Shown: positions 7,092-34,729 of the stretch, one piece after another
How positions within the stretch are numbered: the first letter of the stretch is position 1
Layout: every line of letters starts with the position of its first letter
Assembly: GCA_947589095.1 (NCBI GenBank)
Contig: CANQBX010000022.1
Location: forward strand, 1-51,652
DNA from: an uncultured Lachnospiraceae bacterium
GTDB taxonomy: Bacteria; Bacillota; Clostridia; Lachnospirales; Lachnospiraceae
Direction of reading: 5' to 3'
DNA length: 51,652 nucleotides
Notes under the pieces: generated by a model
Database searches by the model: none
The model's input: only the letters and a program-made list of their open reading frames with translations
What the model was told of the DNA's origin: nothing
Program-made: the position numbers and the translations under genes

Positions 7092-9398
7092 TTGTATGAG
7101 ATACTGAAGCAACAGGAAAGTGAGCAGAATAGAAGTATTGATATTATTGTTCCGATTTATAACGCATATGACGATGTAGTACTCTGTCTCAACAGCCTGT
7201 ATAATTATACGGACTTGAACCAAAACCGGCTGATTCTGATTAATGATCGCAGCACGGACTCAAGAATAAAGGAATATCTGGATAAACAGGCGAGGGAGAA
7301 CATCATTGTAATTCATAATGAAGTTAATAAAGGTTTTTCAAATAATATCAATTTAGGTATTGCACAGTCAGATACACATGACGTCCTGCTCTTAAATTCA
7401 GATACAATAGTAACGAGAAACTGGTTGGAGAAGATTGAAACTTGCGCATATAGCGATCCTGCAATCGCGACGGTTACGCCATTGTCAAACAATGCCTCCC
7501 TTTGCTCAGTACCTGTATTCTGCAGGGAAAACGAGGTTCCTGAAGGTTATACGATTGATTCTTATGCGGAACTGATAGAGAAAGTCAGTTTAAGGAGATA
7601 TCCCACTATTCCTGTGGCAAATGGATTCTGCATGTATATTAAACGGGAGGTCATCAGCAAAATCGGGTCTTTTGATGCGGAGACATTTGGAAGAGGTTAT
7701 GGTGAGGAGAATGATTTCTGTCATCGAGCAGAGCAGACCGGATACCGTCATGCCATGTGTGATGATACATATATATATCACAGCGGTACTGAGTCATTTC
7801 AGAGTGAAGAAAAGAAACAGTACATAGAGGAGCATTCCGCCATTATAAATTCCAGATATCCGCAGCAGGCCCGTGCTACCGATATCCACTGCCGTGATAA
7901 TCCGAATCATGCTGTATTTGACAATATCAATATTCATGCCGGACTTGAGAATGAGAGGAAGAATGTTCTGTATGTGGTTCAGCGTGACTTTAGAAAAGGT
8001 GCGTCGGATAATGTAGGAGGAACACAGCTTCATGTAAAGGATCTGACGATGGGGCTAAAAGGGACCTATAACATATTTGTTGCTGCCCGTGACAGTTCGT
8101 ATTTGAATCTGACGGCTTATATCGGCGAGAAAGAGTACTTTTTTCGTTTCTATATTGGAAATTATCGGGATTATATGTGGTTCCATGACAGAAGAATGGG
8201 GGAGATATTCGGGAGGATTCTTGACTGCTTCCAGATCGATCTTATACATGTTCATCATGTATATACACTGTCCTGTGAAGTTTTCTATCAGGCAGATATG
8301 AGGAAAATACCGATATTTGCAACATTGCATGATTTATATTATATATGTCCTACTGTAAAACTTCTTGATACGGAAGGTAAATATTGCGGAGGCATGGGGT
8401 ATGACTGTAAAAATTGTTTAAAAAAACGGCTGGGTATTGCTTATGAAACACCGCTAATCCAGATATGGCGGAAAGAGTGCGAAAATGTTCTGCGTATGGC
8501 TGAAAAACTGTTTCTGCCATCAGAATCAGCAAAACAGATTTATCTTTCCATTTATCCTGACCTGGCAGATAAAATGCATGTGATTGCACATGGATCGAAC
8601 ATAACTGAAAAACCCAGGCTTAATCACAGAGAAAGCACCTTCAATATTGCATTTATTGGTGGGATCAGTGAGGAAAAGGGCAGCGGCGTATCCGGACAGT
8701 TGATCAGAATGAATATAAGGGGTGTGAAATGGCATCTGTTTGGAGTTTTCGATCATGCAGACCGTTCTGTACTGAAAAACAAGAATTTTATAATGACAGG
8801 TTCATATACCAGGGAAGAGCTCCCGAGATTAATGGAGAAATATCAGATTGATTTGGTATGTATTTTGCCGATCATACCGGAAACTTTCTGTTATACATTG
8901 TCAGAGGCGGTGGCATGTGGTGTCCCAGTGGTTGTGACAGAAATCGGAGCATTGAATGAACGCGTATCAAACATGGAGTGTGGATGGACGGTTCCTACGA
9001 GTGCATCTGCTGTAGATATTATGTCGCTTATTGAAAGAATCAAGGATCGGGGAGTGGAATATCAGGAGAAACTAGCGGCAGTTCAGCGGGTAAAATTGCG
9101 AACAACGGATGAAATGTGTGAATGCTATCAAAGTTATTATAAAGAAAAGCACAAAATGAAGCGGTCAGCTTCAAAAGATTATGTCTGGATGCTGAACGCT
9201 TTTCTGATTGCCCAAAACGCTGGAAACTATGGGGGTGATGAGAGTGTGCTGCTTCGGCTTGCTGAGGCAGAAAAGGAATTGGAGGATATCCGCAATTCAA
9301 CGACTTACAGAGCGATGGGAATTCTTGCGGGAATGAAGATACCATTCCGAAAGCAGATTAAGCAGATATTGACTGTGATGTATAGAAAGGTGAAATGA
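7092..9398 (+). CDS. Bifunctional GT2-GT4 glycosyltransferase
   Basis: A 768-residue fusion. Residues 15-270 are a GT-A domain (IDIIVPIYNAYDD, LINDRSTDS, LLNSDTIV as the DXD region, and GRGYGEENDFCHRA). Residues about 295-680 are a GT-B domain (VVQRDFRKGASDNVGGTQLH, TLHDLYYICP with a CKNCLKK cluster, FIGGISEEKGSG, ETFCYTLSEAVACG). The tail has the ST-TYRAMG motif common at the ends of polysaccharide glycosyltransferases. The TTG at 7092 is the likely start, with AAGGAG at 7075-7080. Base composition changes abruptly here to AT-rich, marking the left edge of a cassette that continues to about 19,735. Two domains suggest it adds two sugars in sequence. Confidence 0.85.
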   Translation: MYEILKQQESEQNRSIDIIVPIYNAYDDVVLCLNSLYNYTDLNQNRLILINDRSTDSRIKEYLDKQARENIIVIHNEVNKGFSNNINLGIAQSDTHDVLLLNSDTIVTRNWLEKIETCAYSDPAIATVTPLSNNASLCSVPVFCRENEVPEGYTIDSYAELIEKVSLRRYPTIPVANGFCMYIKREVISKIGSFDAETFGRGYGEENDFCHRAEQTGYRHAMCDDTYIYHSGTESFQSEEKKQYIEEHSAIINSRYPQQARATDIHCRDNPNHAVFDNINIHAGLENERKNVLYVVQRDFRKGASDNVGGTQLHVKDLTMGLKGTYNIFVAARDSSYLNLTAYIGEKEYFFRFYIGNYRDYMWFHDRRMGEIFGRILDCFQIDLIHVHHVYTLSCEVFYQADMRKIPIFATLHDLYYICPTVKLLDTEGKYCGGMGYDCKNCLKKRLGIAYETPLIQIWRKECENVLRMAEKLFLPSESAKQIYLSIYPDLADKMHVIAHGSNITEKPRLNHRESTFNIAFIGGISEEKGSGVSGQLIRMNIRGVKWHLFGVFDHADRSVLKNKNFIMTGSYTREELPRLMEKYQIDLVCILPIIPETFCYTLSEAVACGVPVVVTEIGALNERVSNMECGWTVPTSASAVDIMSLIERIKDRGVEYQEKLAAVQRVKLRTTDEMCECYQSYYKEKHKMKRSASKDYVWMLNAFLIAQNAGNYGGDESVLLRLAEAEKELEDIRNSTTYRAMGILAGMKIPFRKQIKQILTVMYRKVK

Positions 9399-9402
9399 GC
9401 AG

Positions 9403-10821
9403 ATGCGATTTAAAATGATTAAGAAATATGTAATCGGAATCGGCAGCATTTTAGTTATGGCGCTTATTCTTCGATTTATTGGTAGGGATCAGTTACGTAA
9501 CATTCCTCATACAGATGTATTCACGCAAAATAAAGCAGCGTTATCTGAGATGACAGCAGGGACACTTGTTGAACAGAGCTTTATCTGTCATATGGATGTA
9601 TTAGAAAGTGTAAGTTTTACTCTTGGAACTTATGCGAGAAGCAATAGTGGAATTCTTCGAATGAAACTTGTTGACGAACAGGACAATACAGTACTTGCTT
9701 CAGGAGAAATAGATGTTTCACAGTTAGTGGATAATGAAATTAGAATTTGGACTTTTTCTGAACAGGTTAAAGGTAAAAAGAACAGAAAGCTAGGATTTAT
9801 AGCAGAGGCAAATAGTGAGCCCGGATCCGGAGTTAGCTTTTACTATGGAGATTCTGACAAAAATGATATGGTATTAGTAATTAATGACACAAAATTTCAA
9901 GGATGTCTCGGACTTACATTAGAAGGATATGATGTCAGCCTGTTTGGACTTTATTATTGGCAGTGGATAATCAGCATAATCATTCTATCAGTTGTTTATA
10001 TGCTATGGTCAGACTATCAGAGTGCAAGAGGGAAACTTACAACAGCCACGCTTATGGTTGCAATTTGGAAGAAATATAAATTCCTTATTTTTCAATTAGT
10101 ATCCAGGGATTTTAAAACGAAATATAAGCGCTCTGTTTTGGGATATCTGTGGAGTTTTCTGAATCCGCTGTTGACAATGATGGTGCAGTATATTGTTTTT
10201 TCAACGCTATTTAAAACGGATATAAAAAACTATCCGGTGTATCTGTTAACAGGAATAATTTTGTTCAGTTTTTTTTCAGAAGCAGTTGGACAAGGATTAG
10301 CAGCAATTGTTGCTAATGCTTCTTTAATTACAAAAGTATATGTTCCAAAGTATATTTATCCAATTACAAAAGTAATGTCAGTTTCCATAAACTTATTTAT
10401 ATCAATCATACCCCTTATGATTGTTGTTTTTATAACAGGAGTAAAGTTTACACTGGCGATGTTGTTGTTGCCATTTGCATTAGTGTGTTTGCTTCTGTTT
10501 TGTGAGGGTATGGTACTTATACTTTGCTCAGCGATGGTGTTTTTCCGTGATACCCAGTACCTGTGGGGGATTGTTAGTATGGTATGGATGTATGCGACCC
10601 CGCTTTTTTATCCGGAAACGATTATTCCGTCAAACTTTAGATGGATTCAGACATGTAACCCGCTTTATCATATGATCAAATTTGCAAGGACTATTATTAT
10701 TGAAGGAGTATCACCGTCTCCTTCGTCTTATTTTGCATGTTTGTTTTCAGCGGTAGTCAGCTGTGCAATAGGAGCAATTATATTCAAACGTTCTCAGAAT
10801 AAGTTTGTTCTCTATATATAA
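9403..10821 (+). CDS. ABC-2 polysaccharide exporter permease with external N-terminal domain
   Basis: A 472-residue membrane protein. From about residue 225 it is a standard Wzm/TagG-type permease: the amphipathic SRDFKTKYKRSVLGYLWSFLNPL, then six hydrophobic segments and ATPLFYPETIIP. The first 205 residues are not part of the normal permease. They comprise a membrane anchor at 10-26, an extracytoplasmic beta-rich domain at about 35-180 (SEM, QSF, GTYAR at 75-79) and a second membrane helix at about 186-203. The same domain sits at the same residue numbers in the membrane protein at 17675-19666. Usual Wzm proteins are about 260 residues. It overlaps the upstream frame of the ATPase gene and pairs with it. 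Confidence 0.88.
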   Translation: MRFKMIKKYVIGIGSILVMALILRFIGRDQLRNIPHTDVFTQNKAALSEMTAGTLVEQSFICHMDVLESVSFTLGTYARSNSGILRMKLVDEQDNTVLASGEIDVSQLVDNEIRIWTFSEQVKGKKNRKLGFIAEANSEPGSGVSFYYGDSDKNDMVLVINDTKFQGCLGLTLEGYDVSLFGLYYWQWIISIIILSVVYMLWSDYQSARGKLTTATLMVAIWKKYKFLIFQLVSRDFKTKYKRSVLGYLWSFLNPLLTMMVQYIVFSTLFKTDIKNYPVYLLTGIILFSFFSEAVGQGLAAIVANASLITKVYVPKYIYPITKVMSVSINLFISIIPLMIVVFITGVKFTLAMLLLPFALVCLLLFCEGMVLILCSAMVFFRDTQYLWGIVSMVWMYATPLFYPETIIPSNFRWIQTCNPLYHMIKFARTIIIEGVSPSPSSYFACLFSAVVSCAIGAIIFKRSQNKFVLYI

Positions 10822-10834
10822 GCGGAGGCTTTTT

Positions 10835-11563
10835 ATGATTGATGTAGAACATGTATCTATGAATTTCAGAATGGTGAATGACAGAATCAATAGTTTGAAG
10901 GAATATGTAATAAAACTTTTTCAGCATCAATTGCAATATGAGGAGTTTCAAGTTCTAGACGATATCACGTTTCATGTGTCGAAAGGAGAGGTAGTTGGTA
11001 TTATCGGGAAAAATGGTGCCGGTAAAAGCACTCTTTTGAAGATTATATCCGGGGTTTTGAAGCCTTCAAAGGGAACAGTAATAACAGGCGGTAATATTGT
11101 ACCGATGTTGGAACTGGGCTCAGGGTTTGATTATGAACTGACAGGACGAGAGAATATCTATTTAAACGGAGCGATTCTTGGCTATAGTAAGGAGTTTCTA
11201 AGCAGTAAATATGATGAGATAGTAGAATTCTCTGAACTTGGTCAGTTCATAGATATGCCGATTCGCAATTATTCGTCCGGAATGCTTATGCGTTTAGCGT
11301 TTTCTGTAGCCACAGTGGTTGAACCGGAGATATTGATCGTCGATGAGATTCTAGCTGTTGGGGATGAGGGATTCCAGAATAAGAGTAAATCTCGAATGAT
11401 GGAACTCATGGGCGAGGGGACGACGGTTTTATTTGTATCGCATGGGATTGAGCAGATTGAAGAGATGTGCGACAGAGTAATATGGCTCGACAATCATAAG
11501 ATTAAAATGGATGGCGAAACCAAAGAAGTTTGTGAAGCATATAAGAAAATCTGGAATATGTAA
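10835..11563 (+). CDS. ABC exporter ATP-binding subunit (Wzt/TagH-like)
   Basis: A 242-residue ATPase that powers polysaccharide export with the permease before it. It has Walker A GKNGAGKST, the signature NYSSGMLMRLAF, Walker B ILIVDEILAVGDEGF and the switch histidine in FVSHG. ATG 10835 has GCGGAGG upstream and gives the family start MIDVEHVSM. The family-typical N-terminal region (RINSLKEYV) that contacts the permease is present. It ends at about residue 242 without the C-terminal carbohydrate-binding domain that many O-antigen Wzt proteins use to recognise capped chains. The external domain on the permease may take on substrate selection, but that is inference. Confidence 0.9.
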   Translation: MIDVEHVSMNFRMVNDRINSLKEYVIKLFQHQLQYEEFQVLDDITFHVSKGEVVGIIGKNGAGKSTLLKIISGVLKPSKGTVITGGNIVPMLELGSGFDYELTGRENIYLNGAILGYSKEFLSSKYDEIVEFSELGQFIDMPIRNYSSGMLMRLAFSVATVVEPEILIVDEILAVGDEGFQNKSKSRMMELMGEGTTVLFVSHGIEQIEEMCDRVIWLDNHKIKMDGETKEVCEAYKKIWNM

Positions 11564-11633
11564 GATTAAGAAAAATTATTAATTATTGAAGGTTTTGGAT
11601 TGTATAAGATTTCAAAGAAAAGGTGTTAATAAT

Positions 11634-14600
11634 ATGTTTACCGAAAGATTGAAACAGACAATTGCAGAATGTTTGAAGGATGAAAAAGAATTATCTGCAG
11701 TTATTGACGAGATAATTATGCTTAATAAGAAACTGACGGATTCTTTGCATAAGAAAGAAAATGAACTTTGTCAATTGGAGTGCGCTCTGGAGAAAAAACA
11801 AGAATTGCTATTGAAAAAGGAAAATGATTATCAATGCCAGAAGCAAACCTTAGAAGAGCTACAGAAGCTGTTTTCTGAAAAAAGCAATAATATATTTAAA
11901 TTAAAGCATACACTTTTGGAAACACAGACAAGGTTATCAGAAGCCAATAATCGAGAAATCGAGTTAAAAAATAATATTGAATCCTTAAAGAATCTTTATG
12001 ATCAGTTGAATGAACAGCATAATCAAATTTTGAGTTCCAAGAGTTGGAAATATACGCAGCCATTTAGGAAAATAATATATAGGAATAGATTACTTAAAGA
12101 GTGGATATATATTCATAGACCATCTCAAAGAAAATTGCACAAATTGCTTATAGCTATAAAAATTGTTATCCATAGACCCAGCGTGATTTTTCATTTTATT
12201 GCTAAGTGTTGTCATGAAGGAATAAAAGAGACATTTTCATCCTATAACTCTATAGTAAATGATATATACGATTCCAAACGGTTTGAGAAATATAAGTTTT
12301 CAATATTGATGCCCGTTTATAATGTGGACATCAAATGGTTAAATAAAGCAATTGATTCAGTCCTAAATCAGACGTTCCCCAATTGGGAGTTGTGCATTGT
12401 GGATGATGCGTCTACCGATTCGAAACTTAAAGAATACTTAAAGAAGATTAGTAATCCTAAAATTCAAATAGCATATAATGGAGAAAACTTAGGAATATCA
12501 GAAACAACGAACAAAGCGGCTTCCATGAGTACAGGTGATTATATATTCCTTATGGATAATGATGACGAGATAGATTCACATGCTTTGGAAAAATTTGCAG
12601 AATACATTTTTGAAAAGGAACCAGATCTTTTATATAGTGATCATGATATTATAGACGAAGATAACAATCATATGTCTCCGTTATATAAACCAGATTGGTC
12701 TCCAGACTTATTCCTTTCTCAAAATTATTTAGGGCATTTAGTGGCTTTTCGACGAGAACTATATTTTGAGGTCGGAGGCTCCAGAAAGGAGTATGATGGT
12801 AGTCAGGATTATGACTTATTGCTAAGAATGACAGAAAGGACGGACAGAATTGTTCATATTCCAGAAATATTGTATTCGTGGCGAGCGTTGCCTACATCTA
12901 CTTCTGTGAATCCGCAGAGTAAACCATATGCCCAGTATGCTGCTTTAAAAGCTATACAAGGGCATCTGGATAGAGTCTTGGGCCTTGAAACAGCGCGGGT
13001 GGAGGAAACTGATAATCTCTATGTGTATGATGTACGTTATCCTGCCTATGATAAATTAGCTTCTATTATAATACCTACAAAAGATCATAAAGATGATCTC
13101 AAAAAGGCTATAGATAGTATAATCGAGAAAACAGAATATCACAATTATGAAATAATAGTGCTAAACAATAATTCTGAGAAAGACGAAACATACGAGTTTT
13201 TCAATGAAATACAGAATCAACATACTAATATTAAAGTAATCAATGCAATGTTTGACTTTAATTGGTCCAAATTGAACAATTTAGGTGTGAAATTTGCGGA
13301 GGGAGAAGTATATGTATTTTTAAATAATGATATTGAAATTATAAGTGGGGATTGGTTAGGACGATTGGTAGAGAATGCAATTAGGAAGGATGTAGGTGTT
13401 GTTGGAAGTTTATTATTGTACCCAGATGGTACAATTCAACATGCAGGTGTAGTTGTTGGAATGATGGGGTGGGCTGAACATGTATATAAAGGGACGCTTC
13501 CCGTACATATTGGCACACCATATATTTCTCCGCAGGTAACAAGAAATGTTATGGCGATTACTGGAGCTTGTATGGCGATATCAGCTGAAAACTATCATCG
13601 TATAGGGGGGTTTGATGAAGAATTTATCATATGTGGAAGCGATGTAGATTTTTGCCTCAGAGCTTATGAAAGTGGGTTGCATAATATTTATAATCCTTAT
13701 ATAAAACTGATTCATTTTGAATCAAAGACGCGTGATGCCAAAGATGTACCAGAAATTGATTTTCAAAAATCGTATAAGGCATATACTCCATATAGAGAGC
13801 AGGGAGATCCATATTATAATCCAAATCTTGATTATCAAAGTGTTGTTCCTAAAAAAGCCCGTCAACAATTGGAGTCTGCTGTTCAAACTGAGAAGATCAT
13901 TGATGTATGGGTTCCTGAGATCCGCCCCATTCGCTTTCGCAAAATAAACAGGGAGCGAAAACGACTAAATATACTTCTGCCATCGATTAACGCAGCGCAT
14001 TTTTTCGGTGGAGCAACCACGGCAATGTATTTTTTTGAGTGTATGTGTAAAAATTGGGATGGAGATAGAAGACTTATTTTGGTAGATGCAGATCCTGACG
14101 TAGCAGCGATAGAAAAGTTTTCAAAGGAATATACTTTTTTGGAACCTGAGGAGGATAGTGAAATTTCCGATCAAATAGTTCCTATGTGTAATCGTCATGA
14201 GAGAACCTTGGCTGTATCAGAAAAGGACTACTTTATTTTTACAGGATGGTGGACAGCGTATTGTATTCAAGAAGAGTATAGAAAGTGGATACAAAAAGAA
14301 AGTTGGTATCCTAATATGTTTGTATATTTAATTCAAGATTATGAGCCTGGTTTTTATGCGTGGTCATCTTTATATGCCATGGCTTTATCCACTTATCAAT
14401 GTGAAATGCCTCAGATCGCTGTTTTTAATTCAAAAGAATTAAAAGATTATTTCGGTATCCACGGATATTGTTTCCGAGAACAATTTGTATTTAACCCTGT
14501 ATTAAATCATGGGTTAAAGAATTATATGGCTTCATCATCACCTCAATTAGAAAAGAAGAAACAGATTCTAGTTTATGGGCGTCCAGGAACAGCCAGAAAT

Positions 14601-15092
14601 GCTTTTGAGTTGCTAATAGATATATTACGAAAGTGGGTGGAAATGCAGCCTAATGTACATGAATGGACGGTGTTATCAGCTGGAGAATGGCATGAAACAG
14701 TGAATTTAGGACAAAGTATGTTTTTACGGTCAGTAGGAAAGTTATCAATAGAGGACTACGCGAAAATGCTGGAAGAAACATATGCAGGAGTATCGCTTAT
14801 GATTTCTCCACATCCAAGTTATCCGCCTTTGGAGATGGCGACGTTTGGGGTGAAGGTGATAACAAACGCATATGCAAATAAGGATTTATCAGAATTTAGT
14901 AAGAATATTACCAGTATAAATGGATTTAATCCGGATAAGTTTGCTAGTGCTTTATATGACGTTACAAAAAGATATACTCCGAAAGCAATTAGGGATGAAA
15001 GCAATTATGAATATTGTAAAGGTGGCAGTTTTAATTTCTGCGAAAATATTATTGAACTGTTGCTGGAGAATCAGCATGAGGTGATAAGATGA
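11634..15092 (+). CDS. Multidomain glycosyltransferase: coiled coil, two GT2 domains, WsaF-like GT4
   Basis: A 1,152-residue protein. Residues 1-135 are Lys/Glu/Leu-rich coiled coil, ending in SSKSWKYTQPFRKI, a motif common in such synthases. A first GT2 domain starts near residue 220 (FSILMPVYN, VDDAST, MDNDDEI). A second starts near 474 (ASIIIPTKDH, FLNNDIEI, GSDVDFC). The last part, from about 776, resembles the WsaF rhamnosyltransferase of Geobacillus S-layer glycan: GGATTAMYFFE, IQDYEPGFYAW, VYGRPGTARNAFEL, ISPHPSYPPLEMA. ATG 11634 has AAAGGTG just before it; a TTG at 11586 is in frame. The stop overlaps the next start (ATGA). The coiled coil could act as a scaffold or chain-length ruler, as in WbdD, but this is inference. 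Confidence 0.85.
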   Translation: MFTERLKQTIAECLKDEKELSAVIDEIIMLNKKLTDSLHKKENELCQLECALEKKQELLLKKENDYQCQKQTLEELQKLFSEKSNNIFKLKHTLLETQTRLSEANNREIELKNNIESLKNLYDQLNEQHNQILSSKSWKYTQPFRKIIYRNRLLKEWIYIHRPSQRKLHKLLIAIKIVIHRPSVIFHFIAKCCHEGIKETFSSYNSIVNDIYDSKRFEKYKFSILMPVYNVDIKWLNKAIDSVLNQTFPNWELCIVDDASTDSKLKEYLKKISNPKIQIAYNGENLGISETTNKAASMSTGDYIFLMDNDDEIDSHALEKFAEYIFEKEPDLLYSDHDIIDEDNNHMSPLYKPDWSPDLFLSQNYLGHLVAFRRELYFEVGGSRKEYDGSQDYDLLLRMTERTDRIVHIPEILYSWRALPTSTSVNPQSKPYAQYAALKAIQGHLDRVLGLETARVEETDNLYVYDVRYPAYDKLASIIIPTKDHKDDLKKAIDSIIEKTEYHNYEIIVLNNNSEKDETYEFFNEIQNQHTNIKVINAMFDFNWSKLNNLGVKFAEGEVYVFLNNDIEIISGDWLGRLVENAIRKDVGVVGSLLLYPDGTIQHAGVVVGMMGWAEHVYKGTLPVHIGTPYISPQVTRNVMAITGACMAISAENYHRIGGFDEEFIICGSDVDFCLRAYESGLHNIYNPYIKLIHFESKTRDAKDVPEIDFQKSYKAYTPYREQGDPYYNPNLDYQSVVPKKARQQLESAVQTEKIIDVWVPEIRPIRFRKINRERKRLNILLPSINAAHFFGGATTAMYFFECMCKNWDGDRRLILVDADPDVAAIEKFSKEYTFLEPEEDSEISDQIVPMCNRHERTLAVSEKDYFIFTGWWTAYCIQEEYRKWIQKESWYPNMFVYLIQDYEPGFYAWSSLYAMALSTYQCEMPQIAVFNSKELKDYFGIHGYCFREQFVFNPVLNHGLKNYMASSSPQLEKKKQILVYGRPGTARNAFELLIDILRKWVEMQPNVHEWTVLSAGEWHETVNLGQSMFLRSVGKLSIEDYAKMLEETYAGVSLMISPHPSYPPLEMATFGVKVITNAYANKDLSEFSKNITSINGFNPDKFASALYDVTKRYTPKAIRDESNYEYCKGGSFNFCENIIELLLENQHEVIR

Positions 15093-16315
15093 AGTATAAT
15101 ATTCCGTTTTATATGAAAGATAATGATTCTGCTAGCATGGTAATAAGTAAAATTAATCCTGCAAGTACAGTTTTGGAATTTGGTTGTGCCAATGGAAGAA
15201 TGACAAAGTATATGAAGCAGGAGCTTAACTGCAAAGTGTATATTATTGAAATAGAAGAGGAGGCATATCAAATAGCTCTCCCATTTGCCGAGAGAGGTAT
15301 ATGCGGAGATATCATGGATTTCTATTGGTCAGAACAATACTCTGATGTTGCATTCGATTATATTTTGTTTGCCGATGTGCTAGAGCATCTGTCAGATCCG
15401 TTAGAGGTTCTGATAAGGGCGGAGAAATTATTGAAAACGGATGGGAGGATTATAATATCGATCCCTAACGTTGCACATAGTGATATTGTGGCAAAATTAT
15501 ATGGAGGAAGTTTTGATTATACAAGAACAGGGATTCTGGATGATACTCATGTAAGGTTCTTTACTTGGGAGTCCATGCTTAAATTGGTGAAAGAAGCAAA
15601 TCTTTCTATTGATAATGTTCAGACAACAAATCTTGAATTGTTCGGAACGGAGCAGTATCAAAACCGTCATGATAAGAAGCCGAGTACTTTGATGTGTAAT
15701 TTGTTGCGTTGGAGAGCCGATGCTACAGTTTTTCAATACATTTTGTGCTTGAAAAAGGGTTTAGATATTATTGATAAACCTATAGCCTTTTCGCAGACAG
15801 TATCAGACCAGATGTTGGGAAGAGTATATATAGACTATGGGGATGGCTTTTCAGAAGACCATTGCGAGATAATAGCCGCCCAATATGTAGGAGATGGAAG
15901 CTACAGAGCAACTATAGATTATTCGTCATTTAGAGGAATAAAAAGGATTCGATATAATCCTGTGGATAATCAACCCTGTATCATTTTGACTGATACGATT
16001 AAACTGTGCGAATCCATAAATACGATATATACTAATGGAATTCACATACGTAGCAGGGTATTGTTAAGAGGAAATAATCCGGAAATCATTTATGAATTAT
16101 TAGAGCAGAAAAATGAATTAAGTGGAGATATTATCTTTCAAATAATGGGAGAAGATTTTATTAATAACCTTAGTACTATGCTTATAGAAAGTATAGCTGA
16201 GAACGAGAAATACGAGAAGGATTTAATATCCCTAGAGAAGGCTGCCAGGGAAATAGAAAGCGTGGATATGAAAATAAAAGAGATAAAGAAAACTTTGGAA
16301 CTAGAGTATAAGTGA
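15089..16315 (+). CDS. Class I SAM methyltransferase with C-terminal accessory domain
   Basis: A 408-residue protein. Residues 1-190 are a class I methyltransferase: motif I VLEFGCANGRM, acidic IIEIEEE, and YILFADVLEHLSDP, then DDTHVRFFTWESM. Residues about 245-340 form a separate beta-rich segment (YIDYGDGFSED, YRATIDYSSF, IRYNPVDNQP) that resembles the C-terminal segment of the neighbouring radical SAM protein. The end is a short charged coiled coil. It is coupled by ATGA overlap to the giant glycosyltransferase. In ABC-exported glycans, a methyl group on the last sugar often stops chain growth, so a capping role is a reasonable hypothesis. The acceptor is not known. Confidence 0.82.
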   Translation: MKYNIPFYMKDNDSASMVISKINPASTVLEFGCANGRMTKYMKQELNCKVYIIEIEEEAYQIALPFAERGICGDIMDFYWSEQYSDVAFDYILFADVLEHLSDPLEVLIRAEKLLKTDGRIIISIPNVAHSDIVAKLYGGSFDYTRTGILDDTHVRFFTWESMLKLVKEANLSIDNVQTTNLELFGTEQYQNRHDKKPSTLMCNLLRWRADATVFQYILCLKKGLDIIDKPIAFSQTVSDQMLGRVYIDYGDGFSEDHCEIIAAQYVGDGSYRATIDYSSFRGIKRIRYNPVDNQPCIILTDTIKLCESINTIYTNGIHIRSRVLLRGNNPEIIYELLEQKNELSGDIIFQIMGEDFINNLSTMLIESIAENEKYEKDLISLEKAAREIESVDMKIKEIKKTLELEYK

Positions 16316-17674: not shown

Positions 17675-19666
17675 ATGAGAAAGAAAGATATAGTATTGAT
17701 TTTATGTGGTACTGCAATTGGATGTCTAATTGTGCTTTTGATTGTGCATTTTATTTCTTATTCTTCTTTGTTCTCTAAGAAACAGAATTTTGAGATACAG
17801 GCAGAAGAGGTGGTAGGTGAAATGGCAGTCGGAACTCAATTTATTCAGAGTTTTGAGATGCCATTTGAAAGATTTAAAGGAATGGATGCAGAGATAGGAA
17901 CATATGCAAGAGAAAATGATGGAGAATTAATTGTTGAGTTATATCAGCAGGAAGATGAAAAAGCACTTTATAATTGGAAAGTGAATTTTGAAATGCTTCA
18001 GGATAATTCGATATATTCCTTTAAAATTCCAGACGGAATTCCTGTAAAAAAGGGGGAAGAGTATCGTGTTACCTTTTCTGTCGAAGATACAAATCCAGGT
18101 CATTCAATTACATTGTATTCTTCATCTGACGATGATTATGCGTTTGGGGAATTATATATTAGAAATGGTGATATGGGGCTGGATACAGGAAAAGATTTGT
18201 GTATTCAAATAAGCGGAAATGATAGTCCTCGCTGGGGGATTTTATTTGTGTTTACGATACTTATTTCAATGGTAGTAAGTATGAGTTTATTGAGATGTAT
18301 AAGGAATCCTTGTATTAATGAAATAAATAGTACGGATAAAATTATTTTAGGTATAATAATTTTTATAATGACGTTTTTTTTCTCGCAGCAGGGGGATATA
18401 AATACAGTATTGGATAATGCAAAGTTATTAATAAATTGTATTATTGAAGGAGAGCTGGGAGATTATTATGGCTATGCTCTCAATTTTATGATACCTATTT
18501 GCGCACCAAATTATAATATTCTTTTGTATGGAATTGTAGCAATAATTATATTACCTTTATTTTTGACAGAGATTTTAGTTGGAATTGTAGTCCCAGATAT
18601 TTTATACGAAATTCTTTTTGCAATTGTTTTGAGCTGTACATTTGTATTTGTAGGAAGAATAGTAAACAAGATAGTTATCAAAATAGGAATTGATAATAAA
18701 AAGGCAGATATTATAGAATATCTATTTTTGTTATCTCCTATTTTATTATTTGGAAGTATTGGGTTTAAACAGTTAGATATTTTTTATATTGCTGTAGTAT
18801 TATATTCTTTACTTTTTTATATTGAGGGTCGATATAACTTATTTGCACTGACCATGTCTATATCAATTGCAATGAAAACTTTTCCGATTTTCATTTTTAT
18901 TCCGCTTGTATTGATGTTTGAAAAACGAATATATAGAATAGTGAAATACTTTGCAGAAGGATTGAGTATACCATTTCTGTTTTATATAATATGGGGTCAT
19001 CAAGAGTCGTATCAAAGTATTCAGAAAACAATGGAAAGTATTTATGGATTTACATATCAAATTTTTGCAAATCAGTTACCGACAGGTATGGGAAGTTTTA
19101 GTATATTTGTTGCTTCATGGTTTATTATATGCTTTTGGTGTTATTATCGAATTTCCCGAGGGTCATGGGAAAATGTCATGTCAATATCTGTATTAGTTTA
19201 TTCATTTTTTGCAGTGTTTGTAACATGGCACCCTCAATACCTTGTAATTTATGCGACTTTTTTGACTCTGGCGACAACTTATGTGAAGAATAAAAATAGA
19301 TATATTGGTATTCAAGCATTTTTATCATTGTCATATTTAATAATATGTCTGTTTTGTAATCCGCAAAATACGGATAACTATATGTTCCTAAGAGGAATCC
19401 TGCCAAGAATAGTAGGGGTACCGATTGAAACAGTTACTTTTCGGCAGATTATTGAGGGACTTAATTTTGACTACATTTATATACTATTTGTGTCTTTATT
19501 TGTAGCATCTGTTTTCGCACTTGCTTGTATATGTTTAGATACACATGAACAACAGAAAAATGAAAATTTAAAGAAAGATATAGTGATAAGAGGATACGTA
19601 TTTCTTCCCCTAATTCCGCTATTGGGATTCATCTTGTTATCTGCAGTATTGTGTTGGGGGATATAG
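17675..19666 (+). CDS. Polytopic GT-C-like membrane glycosyltransferase with external domain
   Basis: A 663-residue membrane protein. A helix at about 7-28 is followed by an extracytoplasmic domain at about 35-190 (GEM at 48-50, QSF 58-60, GTYAR 75-79), then about a dozen hydrophobic helices to the end. The motif IAMKTFPIFIFIPLVLMF resembles the KxFP-type loop of GT87/DUF2029 and related GT-C enzymes, which use polyprenyl-phosphate sugars outside the membrane. The external domain matches that of the exporter permease at 9403-10821 residue for residue in position. The start has GAGAAGGGAA ahead. The operon also holds a Dol-P-sugar-synthase-like GT2 and a GtrA protein, which would supply such a lipid-linked donor. 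Confidence 0.75.
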   Translation: MRKKDIVLILCGTAIGCLIVLLIVHFISYSSLFSKKQNFEIQAEEVVGEMAVGTQFIQSFEMPFERFKGMDAEIGTYARENDGELIVELYQQEDEKALYNWKVNFEMLQDNSIYSFKIPDGIPVKKGEEYRVTFSVEDTNPGHSITLYSSSDDDYAFGELYIRNGDMGLDTGKDLCIQISGNDSPRWGILFVFTILISMVVSMSLLRCIRNPCINEINSTDKIILGIIIFIMTFFFSQQGDINTVLDNAKLLINCIIEGELGDYYGYALNFMIPICAPNYNILLYGIVAIIILPLFLTEILVGIVVPDILYEILFAIVLSCTFVFVGRIVNKIVIKIGIDNKKADIIEYLFLLSPILLFGSIGFKQLDIFYIAVVLYSLLFYIEGRYNLFALTMSISIAMKTFPIFIFIPLVLMFEKRIYRIVKYFAEGLSIPFLFYIIWGHQESYQSIQKTMESIYGFTYQIFANQLPTGMGSFSIFVASWFIICFWCYYRISRGSWENVMSISVLVYSFFAVFVTWHPQYLVIYATFLTLATTYVKNKNRYIGIQAFLSLSYLIICLFCNPQNTDNYMFLRGILPRIVGVPIETVTFRQIIEGLNFDYIYILFVSLFVASVFALACICLDTHEQQKNENLKKDIVIRGYVFLPLIPLLGFILLSAVLCWGI

Positions 19667-33232: not shown

Positions 33233-34621
33233 TTAATTCCGGAGCGCATCCTGGATATTGAGCTTCCGTTTCTCGTTCAGCTTCTCGTACATCGCCCGTT
33301 CTTCCGGGGAGAAGCCCTCGTACTGGATCTGTTCCAGATCGCACAGGACGAACAAAAGCTCCGACATTACATTTTCCGCTTCCTGCGTTACCGTGTATTC
33401 CTTCTCGCCGGCCTTCTGCTTTTCCTCTTTCTGTTTTGAATCCTTCTGCTTTTCTTCCTTCTGCAGTTTTTTTGCCTCGGCTCTGGTCTTTGTGCGGTCT
33501 TTCTCGACAACTGCGAGCATTTCCTTGCCGAGAAGCTTCTGGATCGACGCGGACAGTTCACGCCTGGTAATATTCAGAAGGGCCGCGATCTCTTTTAAGG
33601 TGCATTTCTCGTGGGGCTGGCCCAGGAAATACAATAGCTTCACGTCGACGGTGGACAGATCGTTCCGCAGCGCCACGATGTCGAGCAGCCGTTCCTGCAG
33701 CTTCCGTTCCCGGTAGGCGTCGAAGAACACGCCTTCCCCTTCCAGGGCGCCTTCGCCGATCCGCGTCCGCTCGTAGCCCAGCCGGTAGGTTCCGGGGATA
33801 TTTAGGGGAGATACGCTGCCGTCGCTGGCGGCGTCGAACAGGAAGCGGTATACCTGCCCTTTCCGCTTCTCGTAATCCATATCGTCGAAAACGTCCTTAT
33901 AGAAATCGTTGTAGCAGGCGAAAACGGTTCGCTTCATCTGGATCGTCTTCTTCACGCTGATCCCCTGGGAGACCAGGGAGCCCTTCGTCTTGACATAATA
34001 ATATACGGGGATCCGAAGGGCGTAGATGGTTCCGGCGTGCCGGACGTATTCCAGATTGAACATAAAGTCCTCGCACCAGCTGACGGAGCAGTCCATCCGC
34101 AAACGGTATTTTTCTATGATCGAACGTTTATACAGCTTGTTCCACAGAACTCCGTAATAGAAATCCGCAGGCTTCTGCATCATCTTGATGGCGAAATCCG
34201 CCTGTTCCATGACTCCTTCTTCTTCGATGCTCCCCTTCTGGGAGACGCGTTCCCCGATCACCCGGTAGAAATCGGCGATGACCATGTCGCAGTTATGCTC
34301 CGTGATGGCCTGCACCAGGAATTTGGTCGCCTCCGGCGTGAGCCAGTCGTCGCTGTCCGCGAACTGCAGATACTTCCCCTTGGCCCGCGCGATCCCCCGG
34401 TTGCGCGTGTCGGAAACGCCCGAATTCGCTTTGTGCAGTACCCGGACGCGCGGATCCTTCTTGGCGTACGCGTCGCAGATCTCCCCCGAAGCGTCCGTGC
34501 TTCCGTCGTCCAATAAGAGAAGCTCAAAATCCCTGTATTCCTGGTTCAGGATGCTGTTCACACATCGGTCGATCGTTTTTTCGGCGTTATAAACCGGTAC
34601 AATAATGCTTACCAGCGGCAT
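33233..34621 (-). CDS. GT2 glycosyltransferase fused to a MarR-like winged helix
   Basis: A 462-residue protein on the minus strand. Residues 1-230 are a GT-A glycosyltransferase: VSIIVPVYNAEKT, LLLDDGSTDAS, the DXD region FADSDDWL (87-94) and WCEDFMFNLEY (182-192). From about 320 the sequence becomes MarR-like: LSTVDVKLLYFL, the helix-turn-helix TLKEIAALLNITRRELSASI, QKLLGKEMLA, then YTVTQEAENVMSELLFVL and a final helix. A Lys/Glu/Gln-rich insertion at 375-407 sits where the wing is expected. No signal peptide or membrane segment is seen. A sugar transferase joined to a DNA-binding fold is unexpected; the helix could serve DNA, protein or dimer contacts. It is monocistronic. Confidence 0.82.
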   Translation of the reverse strand: MPLVSIIVPVYNAEKTIDRCVNSILNQEYRDFELLLLDDGSTDASGEICDAYAKKDPRVRVLHKANSGVSDTRNRGIARAKGKYLQFADSDDWLTPEATKFLVQAITEHNCDMVIADFYRVIGERVSQKGSIEEEGVMEQADFAIKMMQKPADFYYGVLWNKLYKRSIIEKYRLRMDCSVSWCEDFMFNLEYVRHAGTIYALRIPVYYYVKTKGSLVSQGISVKKTIQMKRTVFACYNDFYKDVFDDMDYEKRKGQVYRFLFDAASDGSVSPLNIPGTYRLGYERTRIGEGALEGEGVFFDAYRERKLQERLLDIVALRNDLSTVDVKLLYFLGQPHEKCTLKEIAALLNITRRELSASIQKLLGKEMLAVVEKDRTKTRAEAKKLQKEEKQKDSKQKEEKQKAGEKEYTVTQEAENVMSELLFVLCDLEQIQYEGFSPEERAMYEKLNEKRKLNIQDALRN

Positions 34622-34700
34622 TGTTCTGTAATCTCCTTCTTCGGTGTTCCGCGCTGCCGCGGAAGCTGTCCGGCGGCGCGGATTTCATGACTTTAAAGTT

Positions 34701-34729
34701 ATAATATCATAAAAGAATGGGTTTTACAA
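34701..34729 (-). promoter_or_regulatory. Sigma-A promoter of the GT2-MarR gene
   Basis: On the minus strand TTGTAA (34729-34724) is followed by a 17-base spacer and TATTAT (34706-34701). The start codon is about 80 bases further, so a leader of roughly 70 bases is predicted. Confidence 0.6.

Follow-up and report, generated by a model that had tools for sequence, protein, structure and literature searches.

The DNA considered here, called the window throughout, is a stretch of 51,652 nucleotides from an uncultured Lachnospiraceae bacterium (contig CANQBX010000022.1, assembly GCA_947589095.1). On its reverse strand, which also carries every feature of the gene given below, positions 33233..34621 (stop codon included) encode a 462-residue protein that joins a family 2 glycosyltransferase (GT2) to a MarR-type winged helix. 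The GT-A catalytic domain (residues 1-211, 33989..34621) is followed by the C-terminal helices of the glycosyltransferase (GT) part (residues 212-268, 33818..33988), and the core of GT-only relatives stops near residue 268. A linker (residues 269-297, 33731..33817) leads into the MarR-fold domain (residues 298-462, 33236..33730). This domain comprises the recognition-helix region (α4, residues 353-365, 33527..33565), the wing region (residues 367-412, 33386..33523) and two helices, α5-α6 (residues 413-461, 33239..33385), assigned to dimerisation by analogy with MarR. The wing holds a Lys/Glu-rich insert (residues ~375-406, 33404..33499) that is modelled with low confidence, is missing from four congeners and is found in related genera.

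Architecture of the fusion protein

The GT part (residues 1-268) is intact. The PF00535 profile matches the open reading frame (ORF) 33233-34621 with 138.5 bits against a gathering score of 23.3 (E 2.7e-40), and residues D39, D89, D91, W160, N161, K162, E184 and D185 are identical in every one of the 94 non-redundant fused homologues; D39, D89, D91, E184 and D185 correspond to the DXD and other acidic catalytic residues of GT-A enzymes. The fold is of the GT-A type, with CgT, a domain of dGT1 from Streptococcus parasanguinis (PDB 5hea; PMC5063993), and the teichoic-acid enzymes as its nearest folds. CgT acts in Fap1 glycosylation within a bifunctional GT, unlike the GT2-MarR fusion, and the authors of that study found its helices to be unlike those of any known protein, hence not of the MarR fold; it also offers a precedent for activity that depends on oligomerisation (PMC5063993). 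The protein would be active in the cytoplasm as a GT-A enzyme of family 2, and its acceptor is probably a surface polymer or a glycoprotein precursor. To our knowledge, the wall teichoic acid GTs TarS, TarP and RmlT have no MarR domain.

The second domain is likewise intact. Predicted alone, residues 298-462 give a complete MarR fold (predicted local distance difference test score, pLDDT, 87), in which the winged helix is flanked by α1 and the α5/α6 dimerisation helices. MarR chains of the PDB are matched by sequence profile, down to 1.3e-9. The HTH_27 model scores above its cut-off with the C-terminal piece and just under it with the whole protein, and the Pfam models MarR_2 and MarR stay under the cut-off with both. 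By predicted fold and profile the C-terminal part is a MarR-superfamily domain, sharing fold, element order and sequence profile with regulators such as SlyA, MTH313, MepR and TcaR; these differ in being stand-alone proteins of ~145 residues, and the D[RQ]R wing of the stand-alone relatives is mostly missing from the fusion. A preliminary description, made from the bare sequence, had proposed a GT2 with preserved catalytic motifs, a MarR-type winged helix and a Lys/Glu-rich insert at the wing, and in all three respects it was right.

Distribution and relatives of the fusion

The fusion is conserved. Ten of 25 other genomes of the genus encode it at full length, with best stretches 76-95% identical, and several of the remaining genomes are incomplete; one congener (G007) holds a GT-only relative. 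With the C-terminal part alone as query, 43 of 397 family genomes are matched at E<=0.001, and a profile of residues 212-462 places the fusion in 42 of the 397, the window's own genome counted. These 42 matches are near full length at E<=5.9e-41, the one in G379 sitting at a contig end. Below them comes a gap, then the GT-only match in G220 (1.8e-33), then mainly stand-alone MarR proteins of ~140-200 residues. Samples of 291 genomes of the class and 199 of the phylum yield no fused match outside the family at E<=1e-18. A species-wide scan (one genome per species, 84,980 species) confirmed at least 544 relatives of any degree, and the best 80 each align from residue 1 or 2 up to residues 455-462. 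Carriers among these 80 include Schaedlerella arabinosiphila DSM 106076, Faecalicatena contorta ET51 and ET55, and Lachnospiraceae bacterium GAM79. Four fusion-bearing contigs (L124, L141, L144 and L145) are labelled Dysosmobacter, Oscillospiraceae or Oscillibacter, which may reflect transfer or misbinning.

An unrooted tree built from 111 GT domains separates the 94 non-redundant fused proteins and one disrupted copy from the 16 others, namely those of 15 non-MarR family genomes and of G007, at a branch with a Shimodaira-Hasegawa-like approximate likelihood ratio (SH-aLRT) support of 100. The conserved fusion fits a single origin, and in this unrooted tree the change may have been either a fusion or a fission. 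An earlier 63-row tree with generic GT2 outgroups had outgroup end branches of 4.5-10 and required three changes of the MarR label; its outgroup rows were badly placed and the disrupted copy was counted separately, and the tree was redone without outgroups. At L207:5036-5932 a GT domain lies within the MarR-fused clade and its frame is lost after the GT core, which could represent a frame-disrupted copy or an assembly error.

A GT-only profile reveals further partners of the same lineage. It matches 57 of the 397 family genomes at E<=1e-106, with one match each, and 41 of these matches belong to the 42 MarR fusions. The 16 non-MarR matches consist of one frame-disrupted copy (G220), which groups inside the MarR-fused proteins, four relatives with a glycosylase-type partner, three with a helix-turn-helix (HTH)-like tail, one with a GNAT domain and seven with no recognised partner. 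The four with a uracil-DNA-glycosylase (UDG)-type C-terminus are L213:969-2336, L214:953-2515, L217:789-2681 and L215:1-1173; the first three match the TIGR04274 DNA-deoxyinosine glycosylase above cut-off (1.8e-36 to 3.6e-40), and L215, which ends at a contig edge, has a partial UDG match below cut-off (0.0085). The L217 protein, a single 631-residue ORF, includes a tRNA-editing domain as well. Among the HTH-like tails (L218:1942-3330, L219:1249-2403 and L222:1160-2254), two give Pfam values of 0.011 and 0.008, below cut-off, and the third has no match. The GNAT acetyltransferase domain of L223:562-1899 stands N-terminal to the same GT.

Mobile or defensive origins were considered and rejected. 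PADLOC matches of the GT2-MarR protein (P0001) are weak, the best being a winged-helix model at 1.6e-4, and PADLOC gives no match to two of the glycosylase fusions. Matches occur in 126 phage records, and among the matches listed one spans at least 80% of the protein. It lies in MT839439.1 (186-1508), an unannotated 'Bacteriophage sp.' record from human faeces with a length of 4,287 bases, shows 52% identity over 95% of the protein and is probably bacterial DNA, possibly caught in a virome.

Role of the MarR domain

Fused and stand-alone MarR domains differ at the wing. The comparison sets 94 non-redundant fused domains (reduced from 130 at 85% identity) beside 45 stand-alone MarR proteins, mostly of the same family; the fused fragment L035 was left out. 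The D[RQ]R motif occurs in 3/94 fused domains vs 36/45 stand-alone proteins, and the window protein has neither this motif nor the looser form [DE][RKHQ][RK]. The aligned wing segment spans 16-61 residues in fused domains and a constant 23 in the stand-alone proteins. The usual wing motif is degenerate in the fused family, and the sequences thereby weaken a DNA-binding reading of the domain, which is still possible. Relative to the stand-alone proteins, column conservation in the fused ones is higher in α1, α5 and α6 and lower in the recognition region and β3.

Selection was gauged by the ratio of nonsynonymous to synonymous changes (dN/dS; Nei-Gojobori, 12 close homologues), given as point values without confidence intervals at synonymous differences near 0.5 per site. 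On the GT side the ratio is 0.084 for the GT core, 0.020 for the GT helices and 0.148 for the linker. On the MarR side it is 0.118 for α1, 0.114 for α2, 0.169 for α3-α4, 0.236 for the wing outside the insert, 0.051 for α5 and 0.054 for α6; a stand-alone control gives 0.051, 0.000, 0.125, 0.218 (wing), 0.110 and 0.484 for the same elements. At ~0.05, α5-α6 are the most constrained part of the MarR module among close homologues. This unusual constraint supports dimerisation through these helices.

The explanation we favour, tentatively and at somewhat less than even confidence, is that a TarS/TarP/CgT-like GT captured a MarR protein as a C-terminal dimerisation or allosteric module. The MarR helices α1, α5 and α6 would most likely join two GT subunits, and the winged-helix part, its usual wing motif largely surrendered, would form a lobe between the two that acts allosterically or binds a partner. 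The main role of the domain would then be to control enzyme activity, not transcription.

Several observations weigh against this explanation. The stand-alone set was chosen by likeness to the fused profile, which introduces a bias, and it mixes paralogues. The looser wing pattern is retained in 27/94 fused domains (38/45 stand-alone), and the net charge is higher in the fused domains, at +2.3 vs +1.2 in the recognition region and +2.3 vs +1.6 in the wing. Across the fused family, pairwise identity averages 0.483 in α1, 0.372 in α2-α4, 0.203 in the wing, 0.366 in α5-α6 and 0.665 in the GT core; family-wide, α5-α6 thus do not rise above the HTH (0.366 vs 0.372). The dN/dS control is one stand-alone MarR gene with seven close congeneric sequences, and relative to it α1 and α2 of the fusion are under weaker constraint. 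The HTH of the fusion is under purifying selection (α3-α4 dN/dS 0.17), and the constraint on HTH and wing is close to that seen in the control, so that binding of DNA is still conceivable.

Upstream region, neighbourhood and rival explanations

The gene is solitary, with an M20 peptidase gene convergent to it on one side and a flavodoxin gene divergent from it on the other. Its promoter, TTGTAA-17-TATTAT (34701..34729), had been recognised in the preliminary description and is retained, as TTGTAA-17-TATNAT, in 10/11 genus members. A 10-bp palindrome, ACTTTAAAGT (34690..34699), lies directly past the -10 box and is retained in just 3/11; an AGGAG ribosome-binding site follows at 34633..34637. 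Exact dyads with 5-base arms and a gap of 0-12 are each shared by at most 2/94 upstream regions of fused genes, and dyad density there is 2.11 vs 2.41 in 865 control regions, which exclude the fused genes' own upstream regions. The clearest enriched 7-mer, AAGGAGA, resembles a ribosome-binding site (34/94 vs 75/865, z 9.4); TGTAACA is mildly enriched (11/94 vs 23/865, z 5.4). An autoregulatory operator gained no clear support from a 13-gene upstream alignment, the promoter and palindrome check, or the dyad and 7-mer counts in the 94 regions. An internal start yielding a free MarR protein was also rejected: a linker start with a Shine-Dalgarno-like sequence occurs in 9/90 fused genes, four of the 94 not being placed, vs 135/1170 control windows.

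Genomic neighborhood analysis covered 80 loci, many of them cut by contig ends and with mechanical gene calls, and recognised the fusion gene in 78/80. Every neighbour family is confined to 6 or fewer of the 80 loci, and a conserved operon was rejected on this count; a same-strand ORF lies <=60 bp upstream in 23/78 copies. Elsewhere in the window, 7092-16315 holds polysaccharide-type genes encoding a GT2+GT4 protein (768 residues), an ABC-2 transporter-type protein, a methyltransferase and a 1168-residue protein that combines GT2 with the N- and C-terminal domains of WsaF. A 663-residue ORF at 17675-19666 has no Pfam match at 1e-5.

Trigger enzymes with DNA-binding domains, such as BirA, NadR and PutA, resemble the fusion in joining an enzyme to a DNA-binding fold, and we know of no glycosyltransferase among them. 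Were the window protein of this kind, its MarR part would bind DNA and its GT would sense the donor sugar or acceptor, so that a single protein would carry out glycosylation and, depending on the supply of sugar, also repress or activate genes. Such coupling to transcription is possible and is our second choice after the dimerisation/allosteric explanation, although less likely than not. The complete MarR fold, the greater positive charge of recognition helix and wing relative to stand-alone proteins, the looser wing pattern in 27/94, the purifying selection on α3-α4 resembling that in one stand-alone control, the conserved promoter of its own and the palindrome adjoining the -10 box in the window are consistent with it, but the D[RQ]R motif is missing in 91/94 fused domains, the palindrome is kept in just 3/11 genus members, exact upstream dyads are shared by at most 2/94 regions and are not denser than in the controls, and no conserved neighbour offers itself as a target. 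The preliminary description is supported in part: its architecture, motifs, winged helix, insert and promoter stand, whereas its proposals of DNA binding that couples sugar supply to transcription, or of glycosylation of nucleoid targets, have against them the wing motif (3/94 vs 36/45), the upstream dyads and the unconserved gene neighbourhood. The basic recognition helix and wing, the looser wing pattern, the HTH dN/dS of 0.17 and the relatives fused to a DNA-repair enzyme leave a DNA-linked reading possible.

The MarR part might instead bind another regulator or protein rather than DNA while the GT modifies a surface protein, which we regard as improbable. A precedent is GmaR of Listeria monocytogenes, a GT with a second role in transcriptional control through an antirepressor C-terminal domain; like the fusion it unites a GT domain and a regulatory C-terminus, but it differs in having tetratricopeptide repeat (TPR) and antirepressor domains and in binding the repressor MogR, and no MarR domain is described for it (PMC9638930). 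The range of wing lengths, 16 to 61 residues, would suit partner binding, but so freely variable a wing speaks against a single conserved partner surface there, no linked gene is conserved, and the GmaR-type architecture is not seen, as the Pfam matches listed contain no TPR and the C-terminus has a MarR fold. More improbable still is that this GT lineage has its site of action at the nucleoid of gut Lachnospiraceae. Its repeated fusions to DNA-acting modules, with the MarR winged helix in most members, the DNA-deoxyinosine glycosylase in one related clade and the HTH-like tail in another, would then reflect either glycosylation of DNA or of targets bound to it, or a transcription enzyme that senses sugar. 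Least likely of all, in our estimate, is a GT lineage that acts at nucleic acid and is delivered there by the various modules joined to it (MarR, the DNA-deoxyinosine glycosylase or the HTH-like tail). The three genomes with TIGR04274 fusions above cut-off, the contig-end relative with its sub-threshold UDG match and the three HTH-like tails point that way, but the GT fold is closest to CgT and teichoic-acid enzymes, and the wing motif is degenerate. Moreover, of the 15 unbroken non-MarR relatives, seven lack a recognised partner, one has a GNAT domain and one glycosylase fusion adds a tRNA-editing domain, so that the partners of this GT may be neighbouring genes that became joined to it by chance.

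Fusions of an enzyme with a DNA-binding fold are already known, and the GT2-MarR fusion is a variant of such enzyme-HTH fusion proteins: it is real, conserved and, as far as literature searches show, undescribed. These searches, which took in few subscription papers, found no report of a GT-MarR or GT-DNA-deoxyinosine glycosylase fusion, and a nucleoid-acting GT lineage, if true, would to the same extent be of a kind not previously described. The fusion occurs in about one tenth of the sampled family genomes (42/397) and in named strains, which makes its role directly testable. If its MarR domain still binds DNA, the protein would be a regulator coupled to sugar in gut bacteria; if it no longer does, the family would show clearly how a transcription factor can be reused as the dimerisation arm of an enzyme.
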